DNA of 55,794 bases. Source: an uncultured Lutibacter sp. (GTDB lineage Bacteria > Bacteroidota > Bacteroidia > Flavobacteriales > Flavobacteriaceae). A model generated the notes under the pieces. The model saw only the letters and a list, made by a program, of their open reading frames with translations, made no database searches and was not told where the DNA came from. Positions 30,112-46,777 of the stretch are shown here, in pieces (position 1 is the first letter of the stretch; every line of letters starts with the position of its first letter). The stretch spans positions 1 to 55,794 of the forward strand of contig NZ_CALAEQ010000147.1 in NCBI RefSeq assembly GCF_937891065.1, read 5' to 3'. Made by a program: the position numbers and the translations under genes.

Positions 30112-31353
30112 TTGCCTAACTTATTTCATGAAAACGAATTCGTTTTTAATGTTCTATTTGAAGCAGTTTCAGAAGGTGTAATAGTTGTTGATGAAAATCA
30201 AACAATTGTTGCAACTAATGTTGCTGCAGAACAAATGTTTGGATACTCTAAAGACGAGTTAATATCACAGCATTTAAATATACTAATTCCACCAAATTAT
30301 CACACTGCACATTCTGCATATGGAGGGCATTATGAAACTTTTTATAAACAGTCTTCGGCAAGGCAAATGGGTCAGAATAGAGAGTTGTTTGGAGTTCGTA
30401 AAAATGCGAATAAATTTCCTGTTGAGGTTGGCTTAAACCCATTTAAAATAGAAAAAAAGAAATTTGTGATGTCTATAATTATAGATATTACAAATAGAAA
30501 AAAATCTGAGGCTAAAATTAATGAGTTAAATAATTTGTTAAAAGATAAAATATCTACAAGAACCATTGAACTTAATAATACAGTTTCTGACCTAAAAAAA
30601 GAAATAGAAAAGCGGGTAAAAGCAGAATCAAATTTAAAGATAGCTCTGAAAAAGGAAAAAGAACTCAACGAGCTAAAAACCAAATTTTTATCTTTAGTGT
30701 CTCACGAATTTAAAACACCATTAAGTGGCGTTTTAAATGCAGCTGTATTAATAGGGAAGTACACAAAATCTGAAATGCAAGATAAAAGAGATAAGCACTT
30801 GCTTACCATTAAAAATAAAGTGTATTATTTAAATGGAATTTTAAATGATTTTTTATCTATAGAGCGACTAGAATCTGGTAAAGTGAAATATAAACTTAGT
30901 AACTTTAAGTTAAGTAAAGTGGTAAATGAGGTCGTTTATAATGCGAATATGATGTTGAAAAGTGGGCAGCGAATTAATTACCCTTTAAATATTGATAATT
31001 TAAATATTTATCAAGATGAAAAAATAGTAGAACTAGTATTATCAAATTTATTACATAATGCTATTAAGTATTCACCAGAAAATACCATTATAGATTTTAA
31101 AATTAAGTTTAAATCAAATGAATTTATTTTTGAAATTAAAGATGAAGGAATTGGAATACCATATGAAGATCAAAAACATATATTTGAACGTTACTTTAGA
31201 GCAGAAAATGCCTTAACAAATGAAGGAACAGGTATTGGATTAAACATTGTAAAAGGTCATTTAGAAAGTCTAGGAGGTACTATAGAATTTAAAAGTGTTA
31301 GAAATCAAGGAACCACATTTATTGTTAAATTACCATTAATTAAAGAAAAATGA
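30112..31353 (+). CDS. PAS-domain sensor histidine kinase, FixL-like
   Basis: 413 residues, soluble, no membrane helices. The PAS domain spans about 15-130 and contains LIPPNYHTAHSAYGGHYETF, where His67 falls at the place of the heme-ligating His of FixL, then MGQNRELFGVRKNANKFPVE. A coiled coil (133-188) leads to the phospho-acceptor His198 in LVSHEFKTPLSGVLN. The ATPase has LLHNAIKYSP (N box), KDEGIGIPYED (G1) and GTGIGLNIVKGHL (G2). The start is a TTG at 30112; the next Met lies inside the PAS domain. It overlaps the receiver-Crp gene by four bases, so they are a pair. Heme binding is inference. Confidence 0.9.
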   Translation: MPNLFHENEFVFNVLFEAVSEGVIVVDENQTIVATNVAAEQMFGYSKDELISQHLNILIPPNYHTAHSAYGGHYETFYKQSSARQMGQNRELFGVRKNANKFPVEVGLNPFKIEKKKFVMSIIIDITNRKKSEAKINELNNLLKDKISTRTIELNNTVSDLKKEIEKRVKAESNLKIALKKEKELNELKTKFLSLVSHEFKTPLSGVLNAAVLIGKYTKSEMQDKRDKHLLTIKNKVYYLNGILNDFLSIERLESGKVKYKLSNFKLSKVVNEVVYNANMMLKSGQRINYPLNIDNLNIYQDEKIVELVLSNLLHNAIKYSPENTIIDFKIKFKSNEFIFEIKDEGIGIPYEDQKHIFERYFRAENALTNEGTGIGLNIVKGHLESLGGTIEFKSVRNQGTTFIVKLPLIKEK

Positions 31354-32408
31354 AAACAATATTAATTATTGAAGACGATATAGTTTTAAGAGAAACAACT
31401 GCCGAAATATTGGAACTTGAAAATTATAAGGTAATTACTGCTTCTAACGGTAAAAGAGGTGCTGAACAAGCAAAAATAATGCTTCCAGATTTAATATTAT
31501 GTGATATTATGATGCCGGAAATGGATGGTTATGATTTGCTAAAAATTCTTTCTAAAGATGAACAAACAAAACGAATTCCATTTATTTTTATGTCAGCTAA
31601 AACTGAAATAAAAGATGTTCGGAAAGGAATGGATTTGGGTGCCGATGATTATCTTACAAAGCCTGTAAGTGAAGAATTGTTATTAAGCGCAATTGAAAGC
31701 AGACTGGCAAAATTTGAGTTATTGAAAGAAGATGAAACTCTAAAAGAGATTCCAATAAAACAAGGAGAATCATTCAAAGAAATAGAGAATATTGATGATC
31801 TTAAAAATTACTTTTGTGATTTTGGTTTGTCAAAAATTTACAAAAAGGGTGAAGTCATTTATAAAGAAGGAGAATATTCTAACCATATTTATTTAGTTTA
31901 TAAAGGAAGTGTTAAAAGTTATAAAATTGACGAGTTAGGAAAGGAGTTAATTCTTAATATTCATAAAGGAGATGATTTTATAGGTTTATCTGCAATTATT
32001 GATAATTCGCATTATTATGAGTCTATATCAGCAATGGAAACTTCAGAAATTTTACAAGTGTCTAAATCTGTTCTATTAGAAATATTAGAAAACAACTATA
32101 AACTTTCATTAGAAATATTTCAATTAATAAATGAAAATTTAACAGAAGTTAAAGAACAATTATTACAAATGGCCTATGGATCTATGCGTAGAAAGACAGC
32201 CAAAACCATTTTAAAATTTGCTAAATTGATGAACCATAAACCATCAGATAGTATTAATATATCTCGTCGTGATTTGGCTGGTGTTGCAGGTATTGCAACA
32301 GAAAGTTTAATTAGAACGCTAACTGATTTTAAGAAGCATGGGATTCTTGAAATTGAAGGTAGAAATATAAAAATTCTTGACATCGAAAAATTAGAAGCTA
32401 TAAATTAA
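31350..32408 (+). CDS. Response regulator fused to a Crp/Fnr-type DNA-binding module
   Basis: 352 residues. The receiver domain is 1-120, with acidic pocket IIEDD, phospho-acceptor Asp52 in LILCDIMMPEMDG, FIFMSAKT and LTKP. The cyclic-nucleotide-binding fold is at about 145-265 (KKGEVIYKEGEYSNHIYLVY, GDDFIGLSAIID). The Crp-type winged helix follows (ISRRDLAGVAGIATESLIRT), with E and R at the places that read the TGA half-site in CRP and FNR. There is no FNR-type cysteine cluster (two scattered Cys in all). Probably activated by the kinase upstream. Matching TGA-N6-TCA sites lie before usp and the minus-strand sdh operon. Confidence 0.92.
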   Translation: MKTILIIEDDIVLRETTAEILELENYKVITASNGKRGAEQAKIMLPDLILCDIMMPEMDGYDLLKILSKDEQTKRIPFIFMSAKTEIKDVRKGMDLGADDYLTKPVSEELLLSAIESRLAKFELLKEDETLKEIPIKQGESFKEIENIDDLKNYFCDFGLSKIYKKGEVIYKEGEYSNHIYLVYKGSVKSYKIDELGKELILNIHKGDDFIGLSAIIDNSHYYESISAMETSEILQVSKSVLLEILENNYKLSLEIFQLINENLTEVKEQLLQMAYGSMRRKTAKTILKFAKLMNHKPSDSINISRRDLAGVAGIATESLIRTLTDFKKHGILEIEGRNIKILDIEKLEAIN

Positions 32409-32457: not shown

Positions 32458-32469
32458 TGACTTATGTCA
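32458..32469. promoter_or_regulatory. Crp/Fnr-type binding site upstream of usp
   Basis: TGAC-TTAT-GTCA, a perfect palindrome of the TGA-N6-TCA class. Its centre is 29.5 bases upstream of the TA of the -7 box, which puts it near -41 relative to the expected transcription start, the class II activator position. Confidence 0.65.
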
Positions 32470-32492
32470 TTTATTCTTAAAACGTCTTTGTT

Positions 32493-32500
32493 TAAGTTTG
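32493..32500 (+). promoter_or_regulatory. -7 promoter element for usp
   Basis: TAAGTTTG fits TAnnTTTG, 11 bases upstream of the usp ATG. There is no -33 TTG at normal spacing, as expected for an activator-dependent promoter. Confidence 0.6.
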
Positions 32501-32511
32501 TATGAAGAATA

Positions 32512-33366
32512 ATGGCAATGAAAAATATATTAATCTTAACAGATTTTTCTGAGAATTCTTGGAATTCAATAACTTATGTACTTGCACTGTCTCAAAATAG
32601 AAGCTGCAATTTTTACTTATTGAATGGAGTAAATTCCTATGAAAATGAATTTGAAGATCAATCAAGTAATCAGTTACTTCTTGTAAAAAATAAAAACGAA
32701 AAAGACTCAAAAAAAGAATTTGCTAAATTAAAAGATAAGATTAACAACTGTCCATTAAAAGGGAATCATAATTTTTTTCCAATTATAGCAGATACTAATA
32801 TTATAGATGCTGCTAGGGCTCAAATTATTGAAAAAAAAATAAACTTAGTTGTAATTGGAACTAATGGAATGTTATCTAATGGTAGACAAAATAATATAAG
32901 CCCAATTGCTGAAGACATTATCACAAAATTAAAATCTTCTATTTTAGTGGTGCCATTTGAAGCTCGTTTTAAAGGTATGAAAGAAATTGTTTTTCCAACT
33001 GATTATACAAATTTCAGCGAGGGAAAATTACTACAAAACCTTTCTAAGTTAATAAGTTACTATCAATCTTCAACTCGTTTTGTTTATATGGCAAAAAATA
33101 GTGGAGAATTAGATAAAGAACAACATTGGAATAAGGAAGCTTTACACGATTATTTTTTAGATATTCCTCATAGTTTTCACAGTGAAATTAATGAAAATTT
33201 CGAATTGTCAATTGAAAATTTTATTCAAAAAAACAATACGGATTTAATAGTAATGGCAGCAAAAAATTTAAATTTGTTTGAACAAATACTATTTAGACCT
33301 AAAATTAAAGACATTAAGTATTATTTTAAAACACCATTTTTAGTACTTCATCAGTTTAATTATTGA
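32512..33366 (+). CDS. Universal stress protein, tandem UspA domains
   Basis: 284 residues with two Usp domains. The first begins KNILILTDFSENSWNSITYVLAL and has the loop LVVIGTNGMLSNGRQN, resembling the GxxGxxxG nucleotide loop imperfectly. The second begins MKEIVFPTDYTNFSEGKLLQ and ends LIVMAAKNLNLFEQIL. The ATG at 32518 would also keep the whole domain. It lies directly downstream of the receiver-Crp/Fnr gene with its own promoter and a Crp/Fnr-type site, so it is a likely target of that regulator. Confidence 0.9.
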   Translation: MAMKNILILTDFSENSWNSITYVLALSQNRSCNFYLLNGVNSYENEFEDQSSNQLLLVKNKNEKDSKKEFAKLKDKINNCPLKGNHNFFPIIADTNIIDAARAQIIEKKINLVVIGTNGMLSNGRQNNISPIAEDIITKLKSSILVVPFEARFKGMKEIVFPTDYTNFSEGKLLQNLSKLISYYQSSTRFVYMAKNSGELDKEQHWNKEALHDYFLDIPHSFHSEINENFELSIENFIQKNNTDLIVMAAKNLNLFEQILFRPKIKDIKYYFKTPFLVLHQFNY

Positions 33367-33419
33367 AGTTGATTTTTAAAAATCAGTTAAAATCCCACCT
33401 TATTTAAGAAAAATTTATG

Positions 33420-33435
33420 AAGCTATTAATAGCTT
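33420..33435. promoter_or_regulatory. Perfect 16-base palindrome upstream of the first propeller gene
   Basis: AAGCTATTAATAGCTT, near the expected -33 position of the promoter whose -7 box is at 33453. It could be an operator or a small hairpin; no protein can be assigned. Confidence 0.3.
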
Positions 33436-33452
33436 AACAGATTATATTATAA

Positions 33453-33460
33453 TAAATTTG
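33453..33460 (+). promoter_or_regulatory. -7 promoter element for the 926-residue propeller gene
   Basis: TAAATTTG fits TAnnTTTG; the leader to the ATG at 33519 would be about 55 bases. Confidence 0.5.
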
Positions 33461-33518
33461 AGTTAATTGAATATTTATATAAAAAATATTTAATGCAACT
33501 AAACTCAAACTTTTTATA

Positions 33519-36299
33519 ATGAAAAAACTAGCCTATTTTTTTAGTTTTTTATTCCTTTCAATAGGAATAAATGCGCAAAATTCAATAGTTAAAAATGTTC
33601 CTTTTACCAATATTGGACCTTCAATTATGAGTGGTCGTATTGTTGATGTAGATGTCAACCCGAATAATCCAGTAGAATTTTATGCAGCATATGCTTCTGG
33701 CGGTTTATGGTATACTAACAATAATGGGACTTCTTTTACTTCAGTAGCAGACAATGCGCCTACTCAAAATATGGGTGATATTGCTGTAGATTGGAATAAT
33801 GGAACAATTTGGGTTGGAACAGGTGAGAGTAATTCTTCTCGATCTTCATATGCCGGAATTGGAATTTTAAAAAGTACCGATAAAGGGAAGTCTTGGCAAA
33901 ATGTTGGTTTGAATGATTCTCAACATATTGGACGTATTATCATCAATAAAAAAAATCCAGATGAGGTTATTGTTGGAGTAATTGGCCATTTATACACACC
34001 AAATATTGAACGTGGTATTTTTAAAACAACAGATGGTGGTAAAACTTGGAATAATGTATTATTTATTAATGAAAATACGGGAGTAATTGATATTAGTGCG
34101 TCACCAATAAATTCAAATGTATTATATGCAGCCTCTTGGGAACGCGATAGGAAAGCGTGGAATTTTGATGGAGATGGTGAAAATTCAGCAATTTATAAAA
34201 GTGTTAATGCTGGATCTACTTGGACTAAAATTACTTCAGAAAAAAGTGGTTTTCCAATAGGAAGTGGTATAGGAAGAATTGGTTTAGCTACATTTAATGA
34301 TGAGATTATTTATGCGCTATTAGATAATCAGTTTATGCGTCCAGAAAAAGAAAAGAAAAAAGAAATAGGCTTAACAAAAGATGATTTTAAAAATATAAGT
34401 GAAACAGGCTTTTTACAATTAAATGATGAAAAACTAAACACGTTTCTAAAAAATAATGGTTTTGATAAAAAATATACGGCTGAAAACGTAAAACAGTCAG
34501 TAAAAAAAGGAAAAATAAAACCTATTGATTTAGTAATTTATTTAGAGGATGCAAATTTTGTATTGCTAAACTCTGAAGTAATAGGTGCTGAGGTTTATAA
34601 ATCCGTAAATGGTGGTAAAACTTGGAATAAAACTCATGAAGATTATTTAGATGGAGTTTATAGTTCGTATGGTTATTATTTTGGAGTAATAGCTGTAAAT
34701 GAATCAAACGAAAATAAAATATACATTGGCGGTGTTCCATTGTTAACATCTGATGATAGCGGTAAAACATTTACTTCAATGAATAGAGAAAATGTACACG
34801 CAGATCATCAGGCATTATGGGTGAATTCTAAATTAGAGGGGCACATTATAAATGGGAATGATGGTGGACTTAATATTACCTATGATGATGGTGAAAATTG
34901 GATTAAAAACAATTCACCTTCGATTGGTCAGTTTTATGCGATAAATGTAGATAATCAAAAACCATATAATGTTTTTGGCGGTTTACAAGATAATGGCGTT
35001 TGGTATGGTCCAAGCAATTATAAAGCCTCAAAAAATTGGGAAAGTAGTGGAGATTACCCATATAAAATGATTGGCGGTGGAGATGGAATGCAAGTTCAAA
35101 TAGATAGTAGAGATAATAATATAGTATATTCTGGCTCTCAATTTGGGTATTATTATCGTGTAAATTTAAAAACAAATGAACGTATTGATATTCATCCTAC
35201 ACACGAATTAGGAGACTCGCCATATCGCTATAACTGGCAAACACCAATATTATTATCGCCTCATAATCAAGATATTTTATACATGGGAGCAAATAAACTG
35301 TTACGCTCTATGGATAAAGGTGAAACTTTTGAAGTGATTTCTGACGATTTAACAACAGGTGGTATTAAAGGAAATGTACCTTTTGGTACTTTATCGGCAG
35401 TTTCTGAAAGCCCTTTTCGGTTTGGATTAATTTATACGGGAAGTGATGACGGTTATGTAAATATAACTAAAAATGGTGGAGGAAGTTGGGCTAGAATTTC
35501 AGATAACTTACCTCAAAAATTATGGGTTTCTAGAATTGTGGCTTCACAACACGAAAGAGAGCGGGTTTATGTAACCTTAAATGGATATAGAAATGATGAT
35601 TTTAAACCATATATCTATGTAAGTGAAAACAATGGAGAAACTTGGGAAAACATTCAAGCTAATCTTCCAAATTCACCAATAAATGTTATAATTGAAGACC
35701 CAGCAGATGAAAATATTTTATATGTCGGTAATGATTCTGAACTGTTTATAAGCTTTAATAAAGGCGAAAATTGGCAAGTGTTTTCTCATGGTCTCCCAAA
35801 AGTTGCAGTTCATGATTTAGTGATTCAAAAAGAAGCGAAAGATTTGGTTGTAGGAACTCATGGGCGTTCTATTTATAAAACTAATATTGCTGCGCTACAA
35901 CGATTTAATACTATTAAAAATGATAAGGTAGCATTGTTTGAAATTCCTTCTATACATTTTTCTTCACGATGGGGAAGTTCTTGGAATAAATGGCTAAAAC
36001 CAAAAGAACCTAGCGTTACAATTTCTTATTATGTTTTAAATTCTGGAAAATATACAGTTGATATTTTGGCTGAAGACAAAACAAAATTAAAGAGTTTTAC
36101 TATTAATGCTTTTGAAGGGTATAATTGTTTTGAATATGATGTTTCAGTAAGTGAAAAAATTGTAGACACCTATTTTTCTAAAAACGAAATTTCAGTTAAA
36201 GAAGCAAAAAATAACAAATACTATTTACCAAAAGGGGAATATCTAATAAAAATCTCCGGAGCTAAAGAAAGCGCAGAACAAAAATTTACAGTTAAGTAA
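33519..36299 (+). CDS. Exported sortilin/BNR-type beta-propeller protein
   Basis: 926 residues with a signal peptide ending INAQ. Many Asp-box-like repeats (STDKGKSWQNVG, TTDGGKTWNNV, SDDSGKTFTSM, SENNGETWENI) make a double VPS10/BNR propeller. Homologues are often labelled glycosyl hydrolase, but no catalytic residues can be named. A Lys/Asn-rich insertion of roughly 80 residues (near 270-350) interrupts the first propeller. The final 140 residues are a possible Ig-like domain. It is paralogous to the convergent gene at 36353-39610. Confidence 0.88.
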   Translation: MKKLAYFFSFLFLSIGINAQNSIVKNVPFTNIGPSIMSGRIVDVDVNPNNPVEFYAAYASGGLWYTNNNGTSFTSVADNAPTQNMGDIAVDWNNGTIWVGTGESNSSRSSYAGIGILKSTDKGKSWQNVGLNDSQHIGRIIINKKNPDEVIVGVIGHLYTPNIERGIFKTTDGGKTWNNVLFINENTGVIDISASPINSNVLYAASWERDRKAWNFDGDGENSAIYKSVNAGSTWTKITSEKSGFPIGSGIGRIGLATFNDEIIYALLDNQFMRPEKEKKKEIGLTKDDFKNISETGFLQLNDEKLNTFLKNNGFDKKYTAENVKQSVKKGKIKPIDLVIYLEDANFVLLNSEVIGAEVYKSVNGGKTWNKTHEDYLDGVYSSYGYYFGVIAVNESNENKIYIGGVPLLTSDDSGKTFTSMNRENVHADHQALWVNSKLEGHIINGNDGGLNITYDDGENWIKNNSPSIGQFYAINVDNQKPYNVFGGLQDNGVWYGPSNYKASKNWESSGDYPYKMIGGGDGMQVQIDSRDNNIVYSGSQFGYYYRVNLKTNERIDIHPTHELGDSPYRYNWQTPILLSPHNQDILYMGANKLLRSMDKGETFEVISDDLTTGGIKGNVPFGTLSAVSESPFRFGLIYTGSDDGYVNITKNGGGSWARISDNLPQKLWVSRIVASQHERERVYVTLNGYRNDDFKPYIYVSENNGETWENIQANLPNSPINVIIEDPADENILYVGNDSELFISFNKGENWQVFSHGLPKVAVHDLVIQKEAKDLVVGTHGRSIYKTNIAALQRFNTIKNDKVALFEIPSIHFSSRWGSSWNKWLKPKEPSVTISYYVLNSGKYTVDILAEDKTKLKSFTINAFEGYNCFEYDVSVSEKIVDTYFSKNEISVKEAKNNKYYLPKGEYLIKISGAKESAEQKFTVK

Positions 36300-36311
36300 A
36301 ACATTGAAATA

Positions 36312-36347
36312 TTAGAAAAACGCCCAATTTTGAATTGGGCGTTTTTT
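36312..36347. terminator. Bidirectional terminator between the two propeller genes
   Basis: Fourteen-base-pair stem AAAAACGCCCAATT/AATTGGGCGTTTTT with a three-base loop; A- and T-runs on either side serve both convergent genes (stops at 36299 and 36353). Confidence 0.92.
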
Positions 36348-36352
36348 ACGTT

Positions 36353-39300
36353 TTAATACTCCAATTCTTCTAATTTTTTAAAAGGTGATAAATTTAATTG
36401 CTCAACAGTTTTTTGATAGTTAATCCAATCAGTATTATAAAACTTATTAATTTTTGAAATAACGGCACTTACTTTTTCGTCAGCATTTTTAACGAGCGTT
36501 AATTCAGTTTCTCCAGGTTTTTGAAGTAGAGAACCAACATATCTTCTAGCGGTATATAAATAAGAAACAGTGCTAGGAAATTCAGTATCAGTAATACCTT
36601 GTCGTTTATCTTCTTTTCCTAACATATCATCTAATAAGTCATTTATACTTTTTAATACAACATCATGAGATTTTAATAATTCTTCTTTGTTTTTTAATTC
36701 AGATTGATTTTTTATGCGTTTTTTATAATCTTCAATAATTTCTTTAGATTCTAACAAACGCTGAGTTGCTTCACCTGCAATTCCACTTTTATTTTCAAGT
36801 TGCTTTAATAAATCATATTTACTTTTTAAAACTTCAAAAGGCATTTCAACTCTAGGGTCGTAAGCAACTTTAATGTTTTCGCTAACGGTTTCATTTCCAA
36901 AATGGATTTTTAGGGTATAAGTTCCAGGCAATACGGTTAAACCTCTAGGCTCGTTTGCATCCTTTTTAACAATTCTTCTTGAAGGACCTCTTTTCCCTTT
37001 CTCATTCATTCCCCAATAAGTTCTGTGAATTCCATTTTCTTTTGGAGCTAAATTTTTAAGACTTCTTATCAATTCATTTTTATCATTATAAAATTCGAAG
37101 AAAATTGAATCAAATTTTACTGTAGGTTTTTTAGATTTTACTTCAGCAATTGCGACTTCTTTTTTAGATTTATTTTTCTTCTTTGTTGAAGGTTCTTCAG
37201 CTTTTTTAGTTTCAATTTCAGGTCTATTAATACTATAAGTTATCATTGCACCTCTTTTTCTATTTTCACCATTAAAAATTGAATTAGCTCCAAAACGTGT
37301 CCCAGTTGGTTGTTGGGTTTGAGTTATAAATGCTGAAGGTGGCGTATATAAATGAAGTGTTTTATCTACTATTTGTTTACCTTCTTTGGCAATTGCTCTT
37401 AATGGTCTAATATCATCTAATACGTAAGCCGCTCTACCAAAAGTACCTATTATTAAATCGTGTTCCCGTGGGTGAATTGCTAAATCCATAGTAGAAACTG
37501 TTGGAAAACCATTTGTCCATTTGGTCCAAGTAGTACCTTCGTCAATACTAATATGCAAGCCGTATTCAGTACCTAAAAACAGTAAGTTTGCCACTTCCAA
37601 ATCTTGAATTATTGAAAGTGTATAACCGAAATTTTCAGTTTTATTTTGAAGTAAACTCTCCCAAGTTTTTCCAAAATCACGAGTTCTAAATAAATAAGGT
37701 TTAAAATCAAATTGACGATAATTATTAACCACAGCATAGGCTTCACCTTTATTAAACTTAGAAGCTTTTATTTGTGCTACCCAACTTCCTTGTGGCATTC
37801 CTTTAATATTTTGTGATACATTATTCCAAGTTTTCCCTCCATCTTGAGTTAATTGAATGTTTCCATCATCAGTACCAACCCAAAGCAAATTTTCATCAAA
37901 TTTACTAGGTTCAATAACTAAAATAGTACAATGATTTTCAGCTCCTGTAGCGTCCATAGTAATACCACCACTTTCATGTTGTTTTTGCTTTTCTTTGTTA
38001 TTTGTTGTTAAATCAGGTGAAATTATGTCCCAAGTATATCCTTTATTAGTTGATTTGTGTACAAACTGACTTCCAAAATAAATAGTTTCATTATCTGTAG
38101 GGTTTATAGAAATTGCAGAATTCCAATTGAACCTTAGTTTCACATCAGGGTTTGGGTGTGTGGGTCTTATACCTTTTGCATAACCAGTTTCCCTATCGTA
38201 TCTAGCAACATTTCCTTCTTGAGACATTCCATAACCATATCTGGAGTTTTTAGGATCTGGAATTACATCGAAACCATCACCAAACATTAATTCTTGCCAA
38301 TAAGAATTTCTGATACCTTGATCTTTTAGTACATATGAAGGACCACTCCAAGATCCATTGTCTTGCATTCCTCCATAAATATTATAAGGAAACTCCATAT
38401 CTACATTTATATGATAAAATTGTGCCAACGGCAAATTTTCAACAAAACGCCAAGTTTTACCACGATCACGAGTAATATTTAAACCACCATCGTTACCGTC
38501 AATCATAAAATTAGAATCTGTTGGGTGAATCCACCAAGCATGATGATCTGGATGAACACCAACTGAAGTTCCATATGCAGGCATTAATTGTTTGAATGAT
38601 TTCCCACCATCTTGACTAACATTTATATAAGTAAAAACAGAATAAACTCTATTTTCATTAATAGGGTCTACAAATATATCTGAGTAATAAAAAGGTCTGT
38701 TACCAATTCCATCTGGACCTCTACCACTTGATTTGTCATTCACCATTTTCCATTTTACGCCACCATCTTCAGATTTATATAATCCATTTTTTTTAGCTTC
38801 AACAAGTGCATATATAAATTTAGGATTGCTTTGAGAAATAGCTATTCCAATTCTTCCTAAATTTCCTTCTGGTAATCCATCTTTATCCGTTAGTTTTTTC
38901 CAATTTTCACCACCATCATAAGTAATATACATTCCAGATCCTTCACCTCCTGAATTAAATGTCCATGGTTTTCTTTGATGTTCCCACATTGCAGCAATTA
39001 ATTTATTTGGGTTTGAAGGATCAACAACTAAATCAGCACAGCCAGTTTTATTATTTACAAACAAAGATTTTGTCCAAGTTTTTCCACCATCAGTAGTTTT
39101 AAAAACGCCTCGTTCAGGATGTTCACCCCAAGGTGAGCCTATAGCGCCAACATATACAGTATTAGGATTGTCTTTATCAATAATAATTTTGTGAATATTT
39201 CTTGTTTTTTCTAATCCAACAAGCTTCCAAGTTTGCCCTGCGTCTAAACTTTTATACAATCCATAACCACCAGTTAAACTATTTCTAGGGTTTCCTTCAC

Positions 39301-39610
39301 CTGTTCCTGCCCAAATAACATCAGGATTACTCTGTTGAATTGCAACAGATCCAATAGATGCAACTGCTTGATCATCAAAAATTGGTTTCCAATCAATTCC
39401 ACCACTTTCAGATTTCCATAATCCGCCAGAAGCAGTCCCTATATATATTATATCGGGTTCATTTGTTACCACATCAATAGCTGTAACTCTACCGCTCATC
39501 CCAGCAGGACCAATTGATCGAGGATTTAGGTTTTTTAATTTTTCTAAGTCTAATTGCTGAGAAATTACAATTGTTGAAATAAATAGTGCGAGTAAGGTAA
39601 GTTTCTTCAT
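36353..39610 (-). CDS. Exported sortilin/BNR-type beta-propeller protein, long form
   Basis: 1085 residues with signal peptide MKKLTLLALFISTIVISQ. It starts NPRSIGPAGMSGRVTAIDVV, parallel to FTNIGPSIMSGRIVDVDV in the convergent paralogue, and carries the same Asp-box repeats (TTDGGKTWTKS, TYDGGENWKKL, SEDGGVKWKMV, TQDGGKTWNNV). It lacks the paralogue's Lys-rich insertion but adds a Lys-rich linker near 800 and a helical C-terminal region of about 200 residues (LKSKYDLLKQLENKSGIAGE). Function unknown; an extracellular or periplasmic binding scaffold is likely. Confidence 0.88.
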   Translation of the reverse strand: MKKLTLLALFISTIVISQQLDLEKLKNLNPRSIGPAGMSGRVTAIDVVTNEPDIIYIGTASGGLWKSESGGIDWKPIFDDQAVASIGSVAIQQSNPDVIWAGTGEGNPRNSLTGGYGLYKSLDAGQTWKLVGLEKTRNIHKIIIDKDNPNTVYVGAIGSPWGEHPERGVFKTTDGGKTWTKSLFVNNKTGCADLVVDPSNPNKLIAAMWEHQRKPWTFNSGGEGSGMYITYDGGENWKKLTDKDGLPEGNLGRIGIAISQSNPKFIYALVEAKKNGLYKSEDGGVKWKMVNDKSSGRGPDGIGNRPFYYSDIFVDPINENRVYSVFTYINVSQDGGKSFKQLMPAYGTSVGVHPDHHAWWIHPTDSNFMIDGNDGGLNITRDRGKTWRFVENLPLAQFYHINVDMEFPYNIYGGMQDNGSWSGPSYVLKDQGIRNSYWQELMFGDGFDVIPDPKNSRYGYGMSQEGNVARYDRETGYAKGIRPTHPNPDVKLRFNWNSAISINPTDNETIYFGSQFVHKSTNKGYTWDIISPDLTTNNKEKQKQHESGGITMDATGAENHCTILVIEPSKFDENLLWVGTDDGNIQLTQDGGKTWNNVSQNIKGMPQGSWVAQIKASKFNKGEAYAVVNNYRQFDFKPYLFRTRDFGKTWESLLQNKTENFGYTLSIIQDLEVANLLFLGTEYGLHISIDEGTTWTKWTNGFPTVSTMDLAIHPREHDLIIGTFGRAAYVLDDIRPLRAIAKEGKQIVDKTLHLYTPPSAFITQTQQPTGTRFGANSIFNGENRKRGAMITYSINRPEIETKKAEEPSTKKKNKSKKEVAIAEVKSKKPTVKFDSIFFEFYNDKNELIRSLKNLAPKENGIHRTYWGMNEKGKRGPSRRIVKKDANEPRGLTVLPGTYTLKIHFGNETVSENIKVAYDPRVEMPFEVLKSKYDLLKQLENKSGIAGEATQRLLESKEIIEDYKKRIKNQSELKNKEELLKSHDVVLKSINDLLDDMLGKEDKRQGITDTEFPSTVSYLYTARRYVGSLLQKPGETELTLVKNADEKVSAVISKINKFYNTDWINYQKTVEQLNLSPFKKLEELEY

Positions 39611-39720
39611 TATTTATGAATTAGTTGAAATAATTTTAAATGTAGAGAATAGAAATGTAAGATATGTTAAAATTTTGATAAAATAGGGAAGTTTAAATTG
39701 CTTAATTGTTACATAAATAA

Positions 39721-39759
39721 AAAAAAACAGCCATCGGTTGATGGCTGTTTTTTTTTTAA
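39721..39759 (-). terminator. Terminator after the minus-strand sdh-like operon
   Basis: ACAGCCATC-GGTT-GATGGCTGT stem with long A- and T-runs on both sides, 19 bases past the sdhB-like stop at 39778. Confidence 0.9.
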
Positions 39760-39777
39760 AGTATTTTAAATCTTTTA

Positions 39778-40521
39778 TTAACTAATACATTTAGCTCTAT
39801 TATATTCAAAATTCATACGAGCAATATCTAATAATTGTACCTCTTGAGGACAAACCATAGCACAAGCACCTGTATTTGAACAATTCCCAAAACCTTCCTC
39901 ATCATGAGCATTTATCATCCATAACGCACGTTCAGTACGTTCAATTTGACCTTGAGGTAATTTAGCTAAGTGACCTATTTTGGCCGATACAAATAACGCT
40001 GCAGATGAGTTTTTACAAGTTGCAATACAAGCACCACAACCAATACAAGCTGCACTATCAAAAGCGCTTTCAGCGATGTCATGATGGATAGGGATTGTAT
40101 TTGCTTCAGGAGCCATACCTGTAAAAGATGAAATATAACCTCCTGCTTGAATAATGCGATCCATGGAGCCTCTGTCAACTTTTAAATCTCTAATAACTGG
40201 AAATGAATTAGCTCTAAAAGGTTCAATGGTAATTGTATCCCCATCGCTAAAAGAGCGTAAGTGCGTTTGGCAAGTTGTGTAATGTTCTTCTGGTCCGTGT
40301 GCTTTTCCATTGATAACTAGCGAACATTGGCCACATATTCCTTCTCTACAATCGTGATCAAATTCAACAGCCGGTTCTCCTTTTGAAGCAAGTTCTTCAT
40401 TAAGAACATCTAACATTTCTAAAAAAGATGTGTCCGAACTTAAATCTGATAATTTATAGGTTACTAATTTTCCTTTTGTTTTGGCGCTTTCTTGTCGCCA
40501 TATTTTAAGTGTCAGTTTCAT
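39778..40521 (-). CDS. Succinate dehydrogenase/fumarate reductase iron-sulfur subunit, copy 1
   Basis: Electron-transfer subunit, 247 residues. 2Fe-2S ligands in [17 protein letters not shown] and the later YTTCQTHL; 4Fe-4S in CIGCGACIATCKNSSA; 3Fe-4S in CSNTGACAMVCPQEV. It starts 8 bases after the flavoprotein gene, last in the minus-strand C-A-B operon. It is homologous to, but clearly diverged from, the copy at 46034-46777. Assignment to sdh or frd cannot be made from this subunit alone. Confidence 0.95.
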   Translation of the reverse strand: MKLTLKIWRQESAKTKGKLVTYKLSDLSSDTSFLEMLDVLNEELASKGEPAVEFDHDCREGICGQCSLVINGKAHGPEEHYTTCQTHLRSFSDGDTITIEPFRANSFPVIRDLKVDRGSMDRIIQAGGYISSFTGMAPEANTIPIHHDIAESAFDSAACIGCGACIATCKNSSAALFVSAKIGHLAKLPQGQIERTERALWMINAHDEEGFGNCSNTGACAMVCPQEVQLLDIARMNFEYNRAKCIS

Positions 40522-40529
40522 AATCTTTA

Positions 40530-42443
40530 TTATTTATATGAGCGAACTGTTGGTTTAACTTCCGTAAATTCTAATGGTTCTTTATGTAATTTCCAGCTTT
40601 CTCCATTTTGCCATTCCCAAGCAGAAGAGTACATATAATTTTCATCATCTCGCATTGCTTCGCCATCTTCAGTTTGGTAATCTTCTCGGAAATGGGCTCC
40701 ACAACTTTCTTTTCTATCTAAAGCATCAACAGTCATTAATTCAGCTATTTCTAAATAATCTGCTAAACGACCTGCTTTTTCTAATTCAGAATTAGGTCCA
40801 TTTTCATTTCCTGGTACTGCAGCATTTTCCCAAAATTCTTTACGTAATTTTTTAATTTCTTCAATAGCCCAAATCATCCCTTTTTCGTTTCGAGACATGG
40901 CTACTTCTTTAAACATAATTTTACCTAAACGTCTATGAATTTGGTCAACAGGCATTGTGCCTTTAATAGCTAATAATTTCGTTACTTGATCTTTTACTGC
41001 TTTTTCAGCTTCTTCAAATTCAGGAGTATCTGTTGAAATTTTACCCGTTTTAATATCATCAGCTAAATAATTTGAAATTGTATTAGGTAAAATAAAATTA
41101 CCATCAACTGATGCTTGTAAAAGAGAATTTGCTCCTAAACGATTTGCACCGTGATCAGCAAAATTAGCTTCACCAACAGCAAATAAACCAGGGATTGTTG
41201 TTTGTAATTCATAATCAACCCATAAACCTCCCATAGAAAAATGGGCAGCAGGTGATATTTTCATTGGTTCTTTATAGGCGTTAATCGCTGTAATTTTTTC
41301 ATACATGGTAAAAAGGTTACCATAACGTTCTTTAATGGTGTCTTCACCTAATTTTTCTATAGCTGTTTTGAAGTCAAGATATACGGCATTTTTTAATGGT
41401 CCAACTCCATGACCAGCATCTATTCTTTCTTTAGCTGCTCTTGAAGCAACATCTCGAGGAACTAAGTTTCCGAAAGCTGGATAACGTCGTTCTAAGTAAT
41501 AATCTCTTTCGTCATTTGGAATATCTCCAGGAGCACGATTTTCATCTTTATTTTTTGGTACCCAAATACGACCATCATTTCTAAGCGATTCAGACATCAA
41601 AGTTAATTTTGATTGATGTTCACCAGATTGTGGTAATGCTGTTGGGTGAATTTGAGTCCAAGATGGATTCGCAAAATAAGCACCTTTTTTATGAGCGCGC
41701 CAATTTGCTGAACCATTTGAATTCATTGCTAGCGTAGATAAATAAAATATTTTACCAAAACCACCAGTTCCAAAAACCAAGGCATGAGCCGAATGACGTT
41801 CAATTTCACCGGTATTTAAATTACGAGCAATAATACCTCGGGCTTTGCCATCAACTATTACAATATCAAGAATTTCATGACGATTGTATTGTGTTAATTT
41901 ACCAACTTTAATCTGCTTCATCATAGCTTGATAAGTTGCCAAAAGAAGTTGTTGACCAGTTTGACCACGAGCATAGAAAGTTCTTGATACTAAAACTCCA
42001 CCAAAAGAACGATTGCTTAAATATCCACCATATTCACGCCCAAAAGGAACTCCTTGAGCGACCATATGATCAATTAAATTTGCTGAAACTTCAGCCATTC
42101 TATAAACGTTAGCCTCACGAGATCGGAAATCACCACCTTTAATAGTGTCGTAAAACATTCGATACACGTTATCACCATCATTTTTATAGTTTTTTGCTGC
42201 GTTTACACCACCTTGTGCAGCAACTGAATGTGAGCGTCGTGCTGAATCTTGAAAAAAGAAAACTTTTACGTTGTATCCTAATTCAGCTAATGATGCAGCT
42301 GCACCTCCACCAGATAATCCACCACCAACAACAATTACATCTAATTTTTTGCGGTTTGCAGGATTAACAATTCGGGTTTTAGCAAGGTAGTTTTGCCATT
42401 TATCTTTTAAAGGTCCTTCTGGAATTTTTGCGTTAAGAGCCAT
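40530..42443 (-). CDS. Succinate dehydrogenase/fumarate reductase flavoprotein subunit, copy 1
   Basis: Catalytic FAD subunit, 637 residues. Dinucleotide fold [19 protein letters not shown]; covalent-FAD His in [17 protein letters not shown]; active-site stretch [15 protein letters not shown]; substrate Arg region [13 protein letters not shown]. Compared with the second copy it lacks about 30 residues near 300-390 and has [16 protein letters not shown] variants. The promoter of its operon carries a Crp/Fnr-type site. I infer a conditionally expressed enzyme, possibly a fumarate reductase. Confidence 0.95.
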
Positions 42444-42452
42444 AATTCTATG

Positions 42453-43139
42453 TTATTTTAAGTAAAGAATGATAGGAATGATGGCATATAATATTGCCAT
42501 AACTAAACTGAAGCATAGTGCTATATACTTAATAATGCTCATCACTTTTTTAGGGTATATTCCTAAAGAACGATGTGCACTTTCTATCCCATGTATTAAA
42601 TGGAAGCACATTGCAATTATTCCTATTTCATATATAAGTACAAACCACCAAACTTTAAAAGTAGCTAATACTAATTCGTATAAATCATGTTCTGTTCCAA
42701 GCACTTTATATTTTAGCCAAAACTGGGCCATATGTAAAACAATAAAGACACCTAAAATTGTTCCTAAAACACCCATGTTTCTCGAATACCAAGTGCTTGT
42801 AGAATTATCAGTTACTTGATATTTTTCTCCTCTAGATTTTCTGTTTTGAATTGTAATTAATAAGGCGTCAACTACATGAATAATCATTGCAGCATATAAC
42901 ACCCATGCTACAATTGTTACTGGCCAAAAGCTAACTAAGAAGTGAGAATATGCATTATACATATCATGTACGTTTTCTACGCCTCCCCAAAATTCTATTG
43001 GAAAAAATGAGTTTGGAATTATTAGAATTAGATTTCCTATAAGGTGAATTACAAGGAAAAAGATAATAAATAGCCCGGTTATAGCCATTAAGTTTTTACG
43101 CCCAACCGATGTTTTGAATAGTCCTTTTTTAACTGCCAT
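42453..43139 (-). CDS. Succinate dehydrogenase/fumarate reductase cytochrome b subunit, copy 1
   Basis: 228 residues, five membrane helices, b558 type. One His in each of four helices could ligate two hemes: FLVIHLIGNL, AAMIIHVVDALL, FIVLHMAQF and CFHLIHGIESAHRS. First gene of the minus-strand C-A-B operon, preceded by a TACTTTTG -7 box and a TGA-N6-TCA site at activator distance. Divergent from copy 2. Confidence 0.93.
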   Translation of the reverse strand: MAVKKGLFKTSVGRKNLMAITGLFIIFFLVIHLIGNLILIIPNSFFPIEFWGGVENVHDMYNAYSHFLVSFWPVTIVAWVLYAAMIIHVVDALLITIQNRKSRGEKYQVTDNSTSTWYSRNMGVLGTILGVFIVLHMAQFWLKYKVLGTEHDLYELVLATFKVWWFVLIYEIGIIAMCFHLIHGIESAHRSLGIYPKKVMSIIKYIALCFSLVMAILYAIIPIILYLK

Positions 43140-43165
43140 AAGGCTAATTTTTTAGAGTTTATGTG

Positions 43166-43173
43166 CAAAAGTA
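43166..43173 (-). promoter_or_regulatory. -7 promoter element of the minus-strand sdh-like operon
   Basis: Minus-strand TACTTTTG fits TAnnTTTG, 26 bases upstream of the ATG at 43139. There is no -33 TTG at normal spacing. Confidence 0.6.
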
Positions 43174-43196
43174 TAAGAGGATAAAGCTTTAGGTAA

Positions 43197-43208
43197 TGAT
43201 ATTTGTCA
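43197..43208. promoter_or_regulatory. Crp/Fnr-type binding site upstream of the minus-strand sdh-like operon
   Basis: Minus-strand TGAC-AAAT-ATCA (plus TGATATTTGTCA), TGA-N6-TCA class with one mismatch between arms. Its centre is 29.5 bases from the first base of the -7 box, the same spacing as at usp. Confidence 0.6.
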
Positions 43209-43295
43209 GATTTCACTTAAAGATGTGTTATTTATAATGAATCTAAATTAAGGGAATAAACAACAAGAGGTTTTAAAAACACAACTTCAAATGTA

Positions 43296-43303
43296 TATAT
43301 TTG
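43296..43303 (+). promoter_or_regulatory. -7 promoter element of the plus-strand sdhCAB operon
   Basis: TATATTTG fits TAnnTTTG, 24 bases upstream of the ATG at 43328. No Crp/Fnr-type site is found at the matching upstream distance. Confidence 0.55.
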
Positions 43304-43327
43304 GACTTTAAAAAAATCAATTAAAAA

Positions 43328-44008
43328 ATGAGCGAAATTTTATCATCATCAATTGCAAGGAAAGTAGCTATGGCGCTGTCAGCACTTTTCCTTATCATTT
43401 TCTTACTTATTCATTTAGCGGTTAATTTAACATCATTATTTAGTGCAGACGTTTTTAACCAAGCCTCGCACTTTATGGGAACTAATCCTTTAATACAGTT
43501 TGCAATGCAACCTATATTAATTTTTGGAGTTGTGTTTCATTTTGTAATGGGGTTTGTTTTAGAACTAAAGAACAAAAAGTCAAGAAATGTAAAGTATGTT
43601 AATTATAACGGAGCTGCTAATGCTTCTTGGATGTCAAGAAATATGGCTATTAGCGGAGGTGTAATTTTAATTTTTATTGTAATTCATTTTCTAGATTTCT
43701 GGATTCCAGAATTAAACACAAAGTATGTTTTAGGAGATATGTCTGGAATGCACGGTGGTGAATTTAGATATTTTGAAGAATTACAACACAAATTTATGAG
43801 TCCAGTGAAAGTTGGAGTTTATGTAATTGCATTTATATTATTAGCATTGCATTTAGCACACGGTTTTCAATCTGCATTTCAATCAATGGGTTTTAATAAC
43901 AAATACACAAAATTTGTAAAAAACTTAGGAACTATTTATTCAATAGTAATTCCATTAGGATTTATAATTATAGCACTGTATCACTATTTTATTCAAATTA
44001 ACCATTAA
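43328..44008 (+). CDS. sdhC: Succinate dehydrogenase cytochrome b subunit, copy 2
   Basis: 226 residues, five membrane helices. Candidate heme ligands: [31 protein letters not shown] and [15 protein letters not shown]. First gene of a C-A-B operon with gaps of about 10 bases. This copy looks like the standard SDH of Bacteroidetes. Confidence 0.93.
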
Positions 44009-44019
44009 TCTTAGAAAAT

Positions 44020-46023
44020 ATGACGACTTTAAATTCAAGAATACCAGAAGGTCCAATAAAAGATAAATGGACATTATATAAAGATCACATTGACTTAGTA
44101 AACCCTGCAAACAAGCGTAATATTGATATTATAGTTGTTGGAACAGGTTTAGCAGGAGGTTCAGCCGCTGCTACTTTAGCTGAGTTAGGATATAACGTAA
44201 AAGCATTTGCTTACCAAGATTCTCCACGTAGAGCGCATTCAATTGCAGCACAGGGAGGTATTAACGCAGCAAAAAATTATATGGGCGATGGAGATTCAAA
44301 CTATCGTTTATTTTATGACACTGTAAAAGGTGGAGATTACCGTTCACGTGAAGCAAACGTTCATCGTTTGGCTGAAGTTTCGGGAGCAATTATTGACCAA
44401 TGCGTTGCACAAGGTGTTCCTTTTGCACGTGATTATGGTGGATTGTTAGACAACCGTTCATTTGGTGGTGTATTAGTTTCTAGAACTTTTTACGCAAAAG
44501 GACAAACAGGACAACAATTATTATTAGGATGTTATTCAGCAATGAACCGTCAAATTGCTCGTGGAAAGATTGAAATGTTCAATCGTCACGAAATGTTAGA
44601 CGTTGTAAAAATTGATGGAAAAGCAAGAGGTATTATTGCACGTGATTTAATTACTGGTGAAATTGAGCGTCATTCAGCTCACGCGGTAGTTATTGCAACT
44701 GGTGGTTATGGAAATGTTTATTTCTTATCAACCAATGCTATGGGTTCTAATGCAACTGCAGCTTGGAAAATTCATAAAAAAGGAGCGTATTTCGCAAATC
44801 CTTGTTTTACACAAATTCACCCAACGTGTATTCCACGTTCAGGAGATTACCAATCTAAATTAACGTTAATGTCTGAATCATTACGTAATGATGGTAGAAT
44901 TTGGGTTCCTAAGAAAATAGAAGATGCGAAAGCAATTCAACAAGGCAACTTAAAACCAACTGCTATTGTTGAAGAAGATAGAGATTATTTCTTAGAAAGA
45001 AGATATCCTGCTTATGGGAATTTAGTTCCTAGAGATGTTGCTTCAAGAGCAGCTAAAGAGCGTTGTGACGCAGGTCACGGAGTTAATGCAACGGGAGAAG
45101 CTGTTTATTTAGATTTTGCTGCTGCCATTAATCGTTATGGTAGTACAAAAGCTAAAATTTCTGGAAATCAAAATCCTTCAAAAGAAGAAATTATAACATT
45201 AGGTGAAGCTGTTATTGAAGAAAAATACGGAAACTTATTCCAAATGTATGAGAAAATTATAGATGAAAATCCATACAAAACACCTATGATGATTTATCCT
45301 GCAACCCACTATACAATGGGTGGTGTTTGGGTTGATTATAACTTAATGACAACCGTTCCTGGTTTATACTGTATTGGTGAAGCAAACTTCTCTGATCACG
45401 GAGCAAACAGATTGGGAGCTTCTGCTTTAATGCAAGGTTTGGCCGATGGATATTTTGTACTGCCTTATACTATTGGTGATTATTTAGCCGATGATATTAG
45501 AACTGGAAAAATACCAACAGATTCTCCAGAATTTGATGAAGTTGAAAAATCTGTAAAAGATCAATTAGATTTCTTCATCAATAATGAAGGAACACATTCA
45601 GTAGATTATTTCCATAAAAAACTTGGTTTAGTGATGTGGAATAAAGTTGGAATGGCTCGTAATGAAAAAGGACTAAAAGAAGCGATTAAAGAAATTCAAG
45701 ATATACGTAAAGATTTCTGGAAAAACGTTAAAGTTCCTGGTGATTTGAATGAAATGAATCCTGAATTAGAAAAAGCAGGTAGAGTAGCAGATTTCTTGGA
45801 ATTAGGAGAATTATTTGCGAAAGATGCTTTAGAGCGTGAAGAATCTTGTGGAGGTCATTTCCGTGAAGAGCATATTACAGAAGATGGTGAAGCTAAACGT
45901 GATGACAAAAATTTTGCTTACGTTGCGGCTTGGGAATACACAGGAAAACCTAGTGAAGCAATTTTGCATAAAGAAGAATTAGAATTTAAAGATATCGAAT
46001 TAAAAACTCGTTCATACAAATAA
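44020..46023 (+). CDS. sdhA: Succinate dehydrogenase flavoprotein subunit, copy 2
   Basis: Oxidises succinate to fumarate in the TCA cycle. 667 residues: [16 protein letters not shown] (FAD fold), [19 protein letters not shown] (covalent FAD His), [29 protein letters not shown] (substrate Arg) and CGGHFREEH. Sequence and length fit the common Bacteroidetes SdhA, so this is taken as the housekeeping copy. Confidence 0.96.
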
Positions 46024-46033
46024 GAAAGACATT

Positions 46034-46777
46034 ATGAATTTAACGTTAAAAATTTGGAGACAAAAAGGACCTCAAGATAAGGGGCAAATGGTCGAATATA
46101 AAGTTACCGATATTTCAGAACACATGTCGTTCTTAGAAATGATGGATGTTTTAAATGAAAGTTTGGTAGCTAAAGATGAAGTGCCAATTGCATTTGATCA
46201 TGATTGTAGAGAAGGTATTTGTGGAATGTGTTCATTACACATAAACGGAGAACCTCACGGTCCAGATCGTGGAATTACAACGTGTCAGTTACATATGCGT
46301 ACTTTTAAAGACGGTGATACTATTTATATTGAACCTTGGAGAGCAAAAGCTTTTCCGGTAATTAAAGATTTAGTAGTAGACCGTATGGCTTTTGAACGTA
46401 TTCAACAAGCAGGTGGTTACATTTCAGTAAATACTTCTGGAAATACGCAAGATGCAAATGCAATTCCTATTTCTAAATACAATGCAGATTTATCTATGGA
46501 TGCTGCTGCTTGTATTGGTTGTGGAGCCTGTGTTGCTAGTTGTAAAAACTCTAGCGCCATGTTATTTGTTGCAGCAAAAGTTTCGCAATTTGCTTTGTTG
46601 CCACAAGGTAAAGTAGAAGCAAAAGACCGTGTACTTAATATGGTTGCACAAATGGATTTAGAAGGATTTGGTAACTGTACCAATACTGGAGCTTGTGAAG
46701 TTGAATGTCCAAAAAGTATTTCATTAGAAAATATTGCACGTATGAACCGTGAGTATTTAAAAGCAAGTATTATATAG
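46034..46777 (+). CDS. sdhB: Succinate dehydrogenase iron-sulfur subunit, copy 2
   Basis: 247 residues. Cluster ligands: [17 protein letters not shown] and TTCQLHM for 2Fe-2[17 protein letters not shown] for 4Fe-4[16 protein letters not shown] for 3Fe-4S. Same length as copy 1. Last gene of the plus-strand operon, followed by a GAAA-looped terminator. Confidence 0.96.

Follow-up and report, generated by a model that had tools for sequence, protein, structure and literature searches.

Are usp and an accessory sdhCAB operon of an uncultured Lutibacter sp. controlled through one Crp/Fnr-type element and, if so, by which protein? The window analysed here, the whole 55,794-nt stretch of contig NZ_CALAEQ010000147.1 (positions 1 to 55,794, forward strand; assembly GCF_937891065.1), carries a Crp/Fnr-type palindrome before each of the two. 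The first-pass annotation, made from the letters alone, had linked them in one low-oxygen regulon and had named as regulator the receiver-Crp/Fnr response regulator (RR-Crp) encoded just upstream of usp. The reading we prefer, and consider quite probable on the sequence evidence, is that both palindromes are class II sites of a flavobacterial FNR-type regulon, with an FNR-like protein as the general activator and RR-Crp sharing its box.

Two sites at one promoter spacing

In both promoters the -7 box begins 29.5 nt from the site centre, 23 bases separate site and box, and CTGAC-N4-RTCAT is common to the two sites (Table 1). The coordinates, distances and shared motif given in the first-pass annotation were exact. 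In Flavobacterium psychrophilum, the sigma-A box TAnnTTTG spans -12 to -5 (PMC9723704). Because the sites lie 29.5 nt before a box of this kind, their centres fall at -41.5 from the predicted starts, the box position being borrowed from F. psychrophilum, and the class II position near -41 proposed earlier was thus recovered. The assignment of both as putative class II Crp/Fnr activator sites is well supported. The leading C of the usp and sdh sites is not typical of the wider site set.

Enrichment of the site-box pair

The significance comes from the site together with its spacing; the 12-mer alone was no more frequent in the window than chance would allow (5 matches to the bare pattern versus 2.5 expected, with 15 of 100 shuffles reaching 5). 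TAnnTTTG was also not enriched there, with 95 matches versus the 110 expected by shuffling. A scan of the window for TGAYN4RTCA followed after 22-24 bases by TAnnTTTG or TAnnTTTA gave the usp and sdh pairs and no others. A third palindrome (45066-45077) was set aside, as it sits within the sdhA coding sequence. Bare TGACN4RTCA was rejected as evidence, being unenriched in the window, while the genome-wide excess was only about twofold (139 versus 67, with palindromes tallied on both strands).

The first-pass annotation had proposed scanning the genome for the site at a fixed distance from TAnnTTTG, and had held that many such sites at random positions would speak against it. Few such pairs were found in the controls. 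At gaps 8-38, the source genome gave 21 matches and its reversed control 1; of the 21, 13 were at gap 23, 3 at gap 22 and one each at gaps 24 and 25. Across 38 Lutibacter genomes, 328 matches were counted at gaps 18-28 versus 33 in the control, and 37 of the 38 exceeded their own control; with RTCAT and TAnnTTTR at the fixed gap, the counts were 951 versus 9. Among 119 Flavobacteriales genomes the fixed spacing gave 221 matches versus 1, with at least one match in 54 of them, the source genome included. That chance palindromes merely fell beside AT-rich promoter-like words, as the unenriched 12-mer and box of the window might suggest, is already refuted at the sequence level by these excesses over reversed controls and by the retention of both sites among relatives described below, and we give it practically no weight.

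Conservation of the two promoters

The first-pass annotation had made its claim depend on conservation of the sites in related promoters, and both were found to be kept. For usp, TGAYN4RTCA and TAnnTTTR at the exact gap of 23 were present directly downstream of the RR-Crp gene in 73 of the 80 named loci compared. The 80 were the top-ranking ones among 476 matching stretches, with Lutibacter oceani represented twice; 10 are close orthologs (72-87%) and the remainder share 51-60%. Their records are mostly Flavobacteriaceae or its genera, with a few Bacteroidetes bins.

The accessory sdhC has full-length relatives of at least 76% identity in 8 other Lutibacter genomes, so that it occurs in 9 of the 38, each time beside a housekeeping sdhC. 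The site was kept at gap 23 in all nine genomes carrying the operon. Upstream of the housekeeping sdh operon, no TGAYN4RTCA was found within 260 bases in any of the 17 relatives with a placeable start (21 tried, 4 dropped). The TAnnTTTG box was present in 16 of these 17 promoters, which serve as an internal control. The accessory operon may encode either a succinate dehydrogenase or a fumarate reductase, both flavoproteins of the window having the same families as their best matches.

The two sdhCAB operons of the window stand back to back (39778-46777), and only the accessory one, on the minus strand, has the Crp/Fnr-type site. Between usp and this operon lie two large sortilin/VPS10-like BNR-repeat proteins (33519-36299 and 36353-39610).

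Table 1. Promoter elements and genes of the window discussed in the text.
Feature	Position	Strand	Remarks
Crp/Fnr-type site TGACTTATGTCA	32458..32469	+	centre 32463.5; usp promoter, predicted -41.5
-7 box TAAGTTTG	32493..32500	+	usp promoter, -12 to -5; predicted transcription start ~32505
Crp/Fnr-type site TGACAAATATCA	43208..43197	-	centre 43202.5; accessory sdh promoter, predicted -41.5
-7 box TACTTTTG	43173..43166	-	accessory sdh promoter; predicted transcription start ~43161
PAS histidine kinase	30112..31353	+	Pfam PAS, HisKA, HATPase_c; TTG start uncertain
RR-Crp (receiver-cNMP-HTH_Crp)	31350..32408	+	Pfam Response_reg, cNMP_binding, HTH_Crp_2
usp	32512..33366	+	Pfam Usp; start codon of relatives matches second ATG, 32518
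Accessory sdhC (b558 family)	42453..43139	-	TIGR02046 above cut-off
Accessory sdhA/frdA flavoprotein	40530..42443	-	NF005749, TIGR01811 above cut-off
Accessory sdhB iron-sulphur subunit	39778..40521	-	Pfam Fer2_3, Fer4 models
Housekeeping sdhCAB	43328..46777	+	divergent; box 43296-43303, no site
Housekeeping iron-sulphur gene	46034..46777	+	named by position only

Predicted members of the regulon

The genes downstream of the pairs in the source genome were assigned to families. Above NCBIfam cut-offs were nosZ (two operons), hemN, a fused ccoN-ccoO, hemA and the alpha subunit of a 2-oxoacid:acceptor oxidoreductase. Pfam models identified a nuoA-type subunit, a ferredoxin, pyruvate phosphate dikinase, a flavodoxin-domain protein, and a cytochrome c with a COX1-family protein encoded next after it. 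By reading, the flavodoxin-domain target appears hemG-like and the cytochrome c and COX1-family pair appears to be norC-norB; further putative targets, read from their sequences, include a porin and a rhodanese-like protein. The 12-mer of the sdh site recurs unchanged upstream of the norC-like gene and of the flavodoxin-domain gene, and between the fnr-like and ccoI-like genes. The theme of the predicted regulon is microaerobic respiration together with N2O and NO reduction. The low-oxygen theme of the first-pass annotation is supported, as is its placing of usp and the accessory sdh operon in one regulon.

At G000:C4:12061-12102 in the source genome, a single palindrome serves two divergent genes, that of the 2-oxoacid:acceptor oxidoreductase alpha subunit at gap 23 and that of a ferredoxin at gap 22, and similar gap-22 pairs were seen in several other Lutibacter genomes. 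Another box, at G000:C262:7733, is followed by a frame that, on reading, resembles the start of a further Crp/Fnr-family protein; this frame is a 65-residue fragment at the stretch end and had no Pfam match.

The two candidate regulators

The first candidate is a 228-residue FNR-like protein of the source genome (G000:C159). It has the sensor domain and HTH_Crp domain of the Crp/Fnr family, with HTH_Crp_2 above cut-off and a match to FNR over residues 4-224. It was present in all 30 loci read, one each from 30 of the 38 Lutibacter genomes; the loci were the best HTH_Crp_2 matches and did not include G002, G004, G009, G017, G021, G022, G041 and G044. All 38 genomes encode HTH_Crp_2 proteins. 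Cys4, Cys7, Cys53 and Cys106 were invariant in the 30, and Cys4, Cys7 and Cys106 align with FNR cysteines. We call the protein FNR-like rather than FNR because three of the four FNR ligand positions are occupied and Cys53 is invariant instead; Cys53 is a possible rearranged cluster ligand.

One box lies between the fnr-like gene and a divergent gene that encodes a P-type ATPase of the heavy-metal kind (G000:C159:35000-48000). This ATPase has an ATPase-cat_bd domain and falls below the cut-offs of general ATPase models; in our reading it would be ccoI. In the same stretch a second box was seen between the ccoI-like gene and a ccoN-like gene. The box that we would pair with the FNR-like protein is ATGAY-N4-RTCAT, as compared with TTGAT-N4-ATCAA for FNR. 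The recognition helices of the two candidates are nearly equal, ATESAIR in the FNR-like protein and ATESLIR in RR-Crp.

The second candidate is RR-Crp itself. Its receiver has the phosphoacceptor residues expected of a response regulator, Asp52, Ser82 and Lys104 being kept in 81 of 81 RR-Crp proteins, and Glu318 and Arg322 of the recognition helix were kept in the same 81. No invariant cysteine was found in the sensor domain among the aligned relatives. Given the invariant receiver residues and the lack of such a cysteine, the input of RR-Crp should be phosphorylation, and the PAS kinase encoded upstream is its likely partner. For the PAS domain, 13 of the 14 solved-structure matches listed were FixL or DosP, where we take the yddU entry to be DosP. 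PAS His67, which aligns with the haem ligand of FixL, was found in 78 of 80 aligned kinases and Arg90 in 62 of 80, the window kinase included in both; one of the 80 loci gave no kinase. This histidine is, however, also present in PAS domains for which haem binding is not known. The resemblance to the haem PAS domains of FixL and DosP makes oxygen sensing by the kinase a lead, not proof, and haem binding is not claimed from the PAS domain alone.

Which regulator acts where

RR-Crp alone, as proposed in the first-pass annotation, might account for both usp and sdh. The usp site lies immediately downstream of its gene in the 73 loci, both sites of the window are less than 11 kb from it, and sites are enriched near RR-Crp genes. 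However, while RR-Crp was matched at E<=1e-60 in 32 of the 38 Lutibacter genomes, the 6 genomes with none still held 90 site-box pairs versus 5 in the control. Four of the six are 62-88% complete, and G007 and G009 are at 99%, with 16 pairs versus 1 and 16 versus 2, respectively. G009 has a 404-residue frame with a partial 34% match to RR-Crp, and G007 is the cleanest case. The regulon therefore does not need RR-Crp. Moreover, G001, G002 and G024 keep an intact site before the accessory sdh operon although their nearest RR-Crp relative is a paralog of 53-54%, so that this site does not need the ortholog. In G019, about 140 kb separate the operon from the RR-Crp gene. The paralog may act at the sdh site in those three genomes.

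Half-site use speaks for RR-Crp to some extent. The promoter-side half was GTCA in 38 of 73 usp sites versus 24 of 90 sites in the genomes without RR-Crp (Fisher p 0.001), and the mean share was 0.18 in these genomes and 0.34 in the others (p 0.004 by Mann-Whitney, p 0.02 by pooled Fisher test), relatedness being uncorrected in both comparisons. The same six genomes also had fewer sites per Mb. Half-site preference was not taken as decisive for the choice of regulator and is only a hint, coming from six genomes, four of them incomplete. Taken together, exclusive control by RR-Crp appears improbable. The earlier assignment is partly supported: for usp the adjacency makes RR-Crp a good candidate, and for sdh the case is weak.

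The FNR-like protein alone might instead use all the sites, with RR-Crp binding elsewhere and its adjacency to usp being coincidence or history. The presence of the protein in every locus read and the persistence of the regulon where RR-Crp is missing are in favour of this possibility. It leaves the RR-Crp/site adjacency in 73 of 80 loci unaccounted for, and the second RR-Crp gene of the source genome is likewise followed directly by a site, beyond which the contig ends and the next gene is out of view. The recognition residues, too, are common to both proteins. Furthermore, sites cluster around RR-Crp paralogs: 34 of 199 lay within 20 kb of an RR-Crp gene versus 5.3 expected, and 26 remained after removal of the 8 within 150 bases. 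This comparison covered the 6 of 38 Lutibacter genomes with complete site listings and used rounded genome sizes and uniform placement as the null. We thus consider sole use by the FNR-like protein unlikely, if less so than exclusive control by RR-Crp.

Two islands around RR-Crp paralogs were annotated with Pfam (20 proteins, 4 without a match). They encode Usp, BON, an S30AE hibernation factor, ribonucleotide reductase, a phosphoribosyltransferase, Hsp20, ferritin/Dps and a LigD-type primase. Boxes are numerous around such paralogs, but some of the island genes have no site. Near one paralog (G023:C22), several boxes read TGACCTAGGTCA or differ little from it; this form is richer in GC and may be specific to the paralog.

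Our preferred reading, in which the two proteins share one box, assigns them different parts. The FNR-like protein is most likely the better general regulator, and RR-Crp probably acts on usp and the stress-gene islands. Several observations weigh against this reading. Three of the 21 source-genome matches were at gaps 16, 32 and 33 (one each), the Lutibacter genome G014 was unenriched at gaps 18-28 (2 versus 2), and 65 of the 119 Flavobacteriales genomes had no match, small genomes mostly having none. Seven of the 80 usp loci deviated from the exact spacing (L170, with gap 24, and L193, L199, L200, L204, L205 and L206), and the start motif identified usp in 72 of the 80. The sdh box departs from TAnnTTTG in 8 of the 9 promoters, being TAYCTTTA in 7 and TATTTTAA in 1; the ninth, that of the window, has TACTTTTG. 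In the FNR-like protein the third of the N-terminal FNR cysteines is missing, leaving 3 of 4 ligand positions, and the Fnr model, matched over 211 of its 228 residues, scored 90 bits versus a cut-off of 228 bits. Finally, in a survey of 28 pairs, restricted to stretches fetched for containing matches, 5 pairs had no gene within 260 bases downstream, some of them at contig ends.

Proposed mechanism

From positions, spacing, genome-wide enrichment, conservation and gene content, all observed directly, we infer binding, activation, the oxygen response, the assignment of proteins to promoters and their division of labour. A Crp/Fnr-family dimer would bind ATGAY-N4-RTCAT at -41.5, beside the housekeeping sigma factor on TAnnTTTG, and would recruit RNA polymerase as oxygen falls. 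The general activator would most likely be the 228-residue FNR-like protein, probably an iron-sulphur oxygen sensor, encoded beside the ccoI-like gene. RR-Crp, with its almost identical recognition helix, probably reads the same box, and phosphorylation by the PAS kinase encoded upstream would be its input. In this scheme, usp is probably under both proteins and the accessory sdhCAB operon would be mainly under the FNR-like protein.

Comparison with known systems

The FNR, FixK and ANR regulons of Proteobacteria use class II promoters and a palindromic box with a 4-base spacer, and include cco, nos and hemN among their targets. The Lutibacter system resembles them in its Crp/Fnr proteins, its 4-base-spacer palindrome at -41.5, its cco, nos and hemN targets and the position of the regulator beside a ccoI-like gene. 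It differs in the half-site, ATGAY instead of TTGAT, in the Bacteroidota box TAnnTTTG, and, with respect to FNR, in the missing third N-terminal cysteine and the invariant Cys53. HcpR is a second point of reference. As reported in the HcpR study (PMC1274295), HcpR sites are TTGACnnnnGTCAA and those of HcpR2 of Bacteroides and others are GTAACnnnnGTTAC. The TGAC-N4-GTCA core is common to HcpR and Lutibacter, whereas Lutibacter does not require TTGAC and has respiratory targets, those of HcpR being hcp and frdX (PMC1274295).

For Flavobacteriales genes of low-oxygen metabolism and N2O reduction, the pair amounts to a testable promoter code: TGAY-N4-RTCAT, 22 bases and TAnnTTTG. Among the titles and abstracts listed by searches of open-licence literature, nothing was found on this box or on the receiver-Crp/usp pair, which is weak evidence of absence. 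In a wastewater study, bins of Ignavibacteria, Flavobacteriales and Saprospiraceae were searched with a Bacteroides MalR matrix, and its paragraph on these organisms reports no sign of Crp/Fnr control of denitrification (PMC8510549). For such bins the Lutibacter box would be a better query than the MalR matrix. The analysis further connects a receiver-Crp/Fnr protein of wide occurrence with a target promoter that is conserved, and the point of interest is that one box would be common to this protein and an FNR-like protein.

In the FixL-FixJ-FixK cascade, a PAS kinase, a receiver and a Crp/Fnr output act in series. The Lutibacter locus likewise has a PAS kinase resembling FixL, a receiver and a Crp/Fnr output, but here receiver and output are one protein, and haem binding is only a candidate property. 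The DosR regulon is a dormancy regulon with a NarL-type regulator. The two RR-Crp islands resemble it in Usp, BON, S30AE, ribonucleotide reductase, phosphoribosyltransferase, Hsp20 and ferritin/Dps, and differ from it in having a receiver-Crp instead of a NarL-type regulator and in genes that are partly without a site. As a tentative idea, to which we give less than even weight, Flavobacteriaceae may have fused the FixJ and FixK steps, such that a FixL-like PAS kinase would phosphorylate a receiver-Crp/Fnr activator, and this activator and an iron-sulphur FNR-like protein would use the same box at -41.5. One element would then integrate a kinase signal with direct oxygen sensing, and the paralogs would run DosR-like dormancy islands reached independently.

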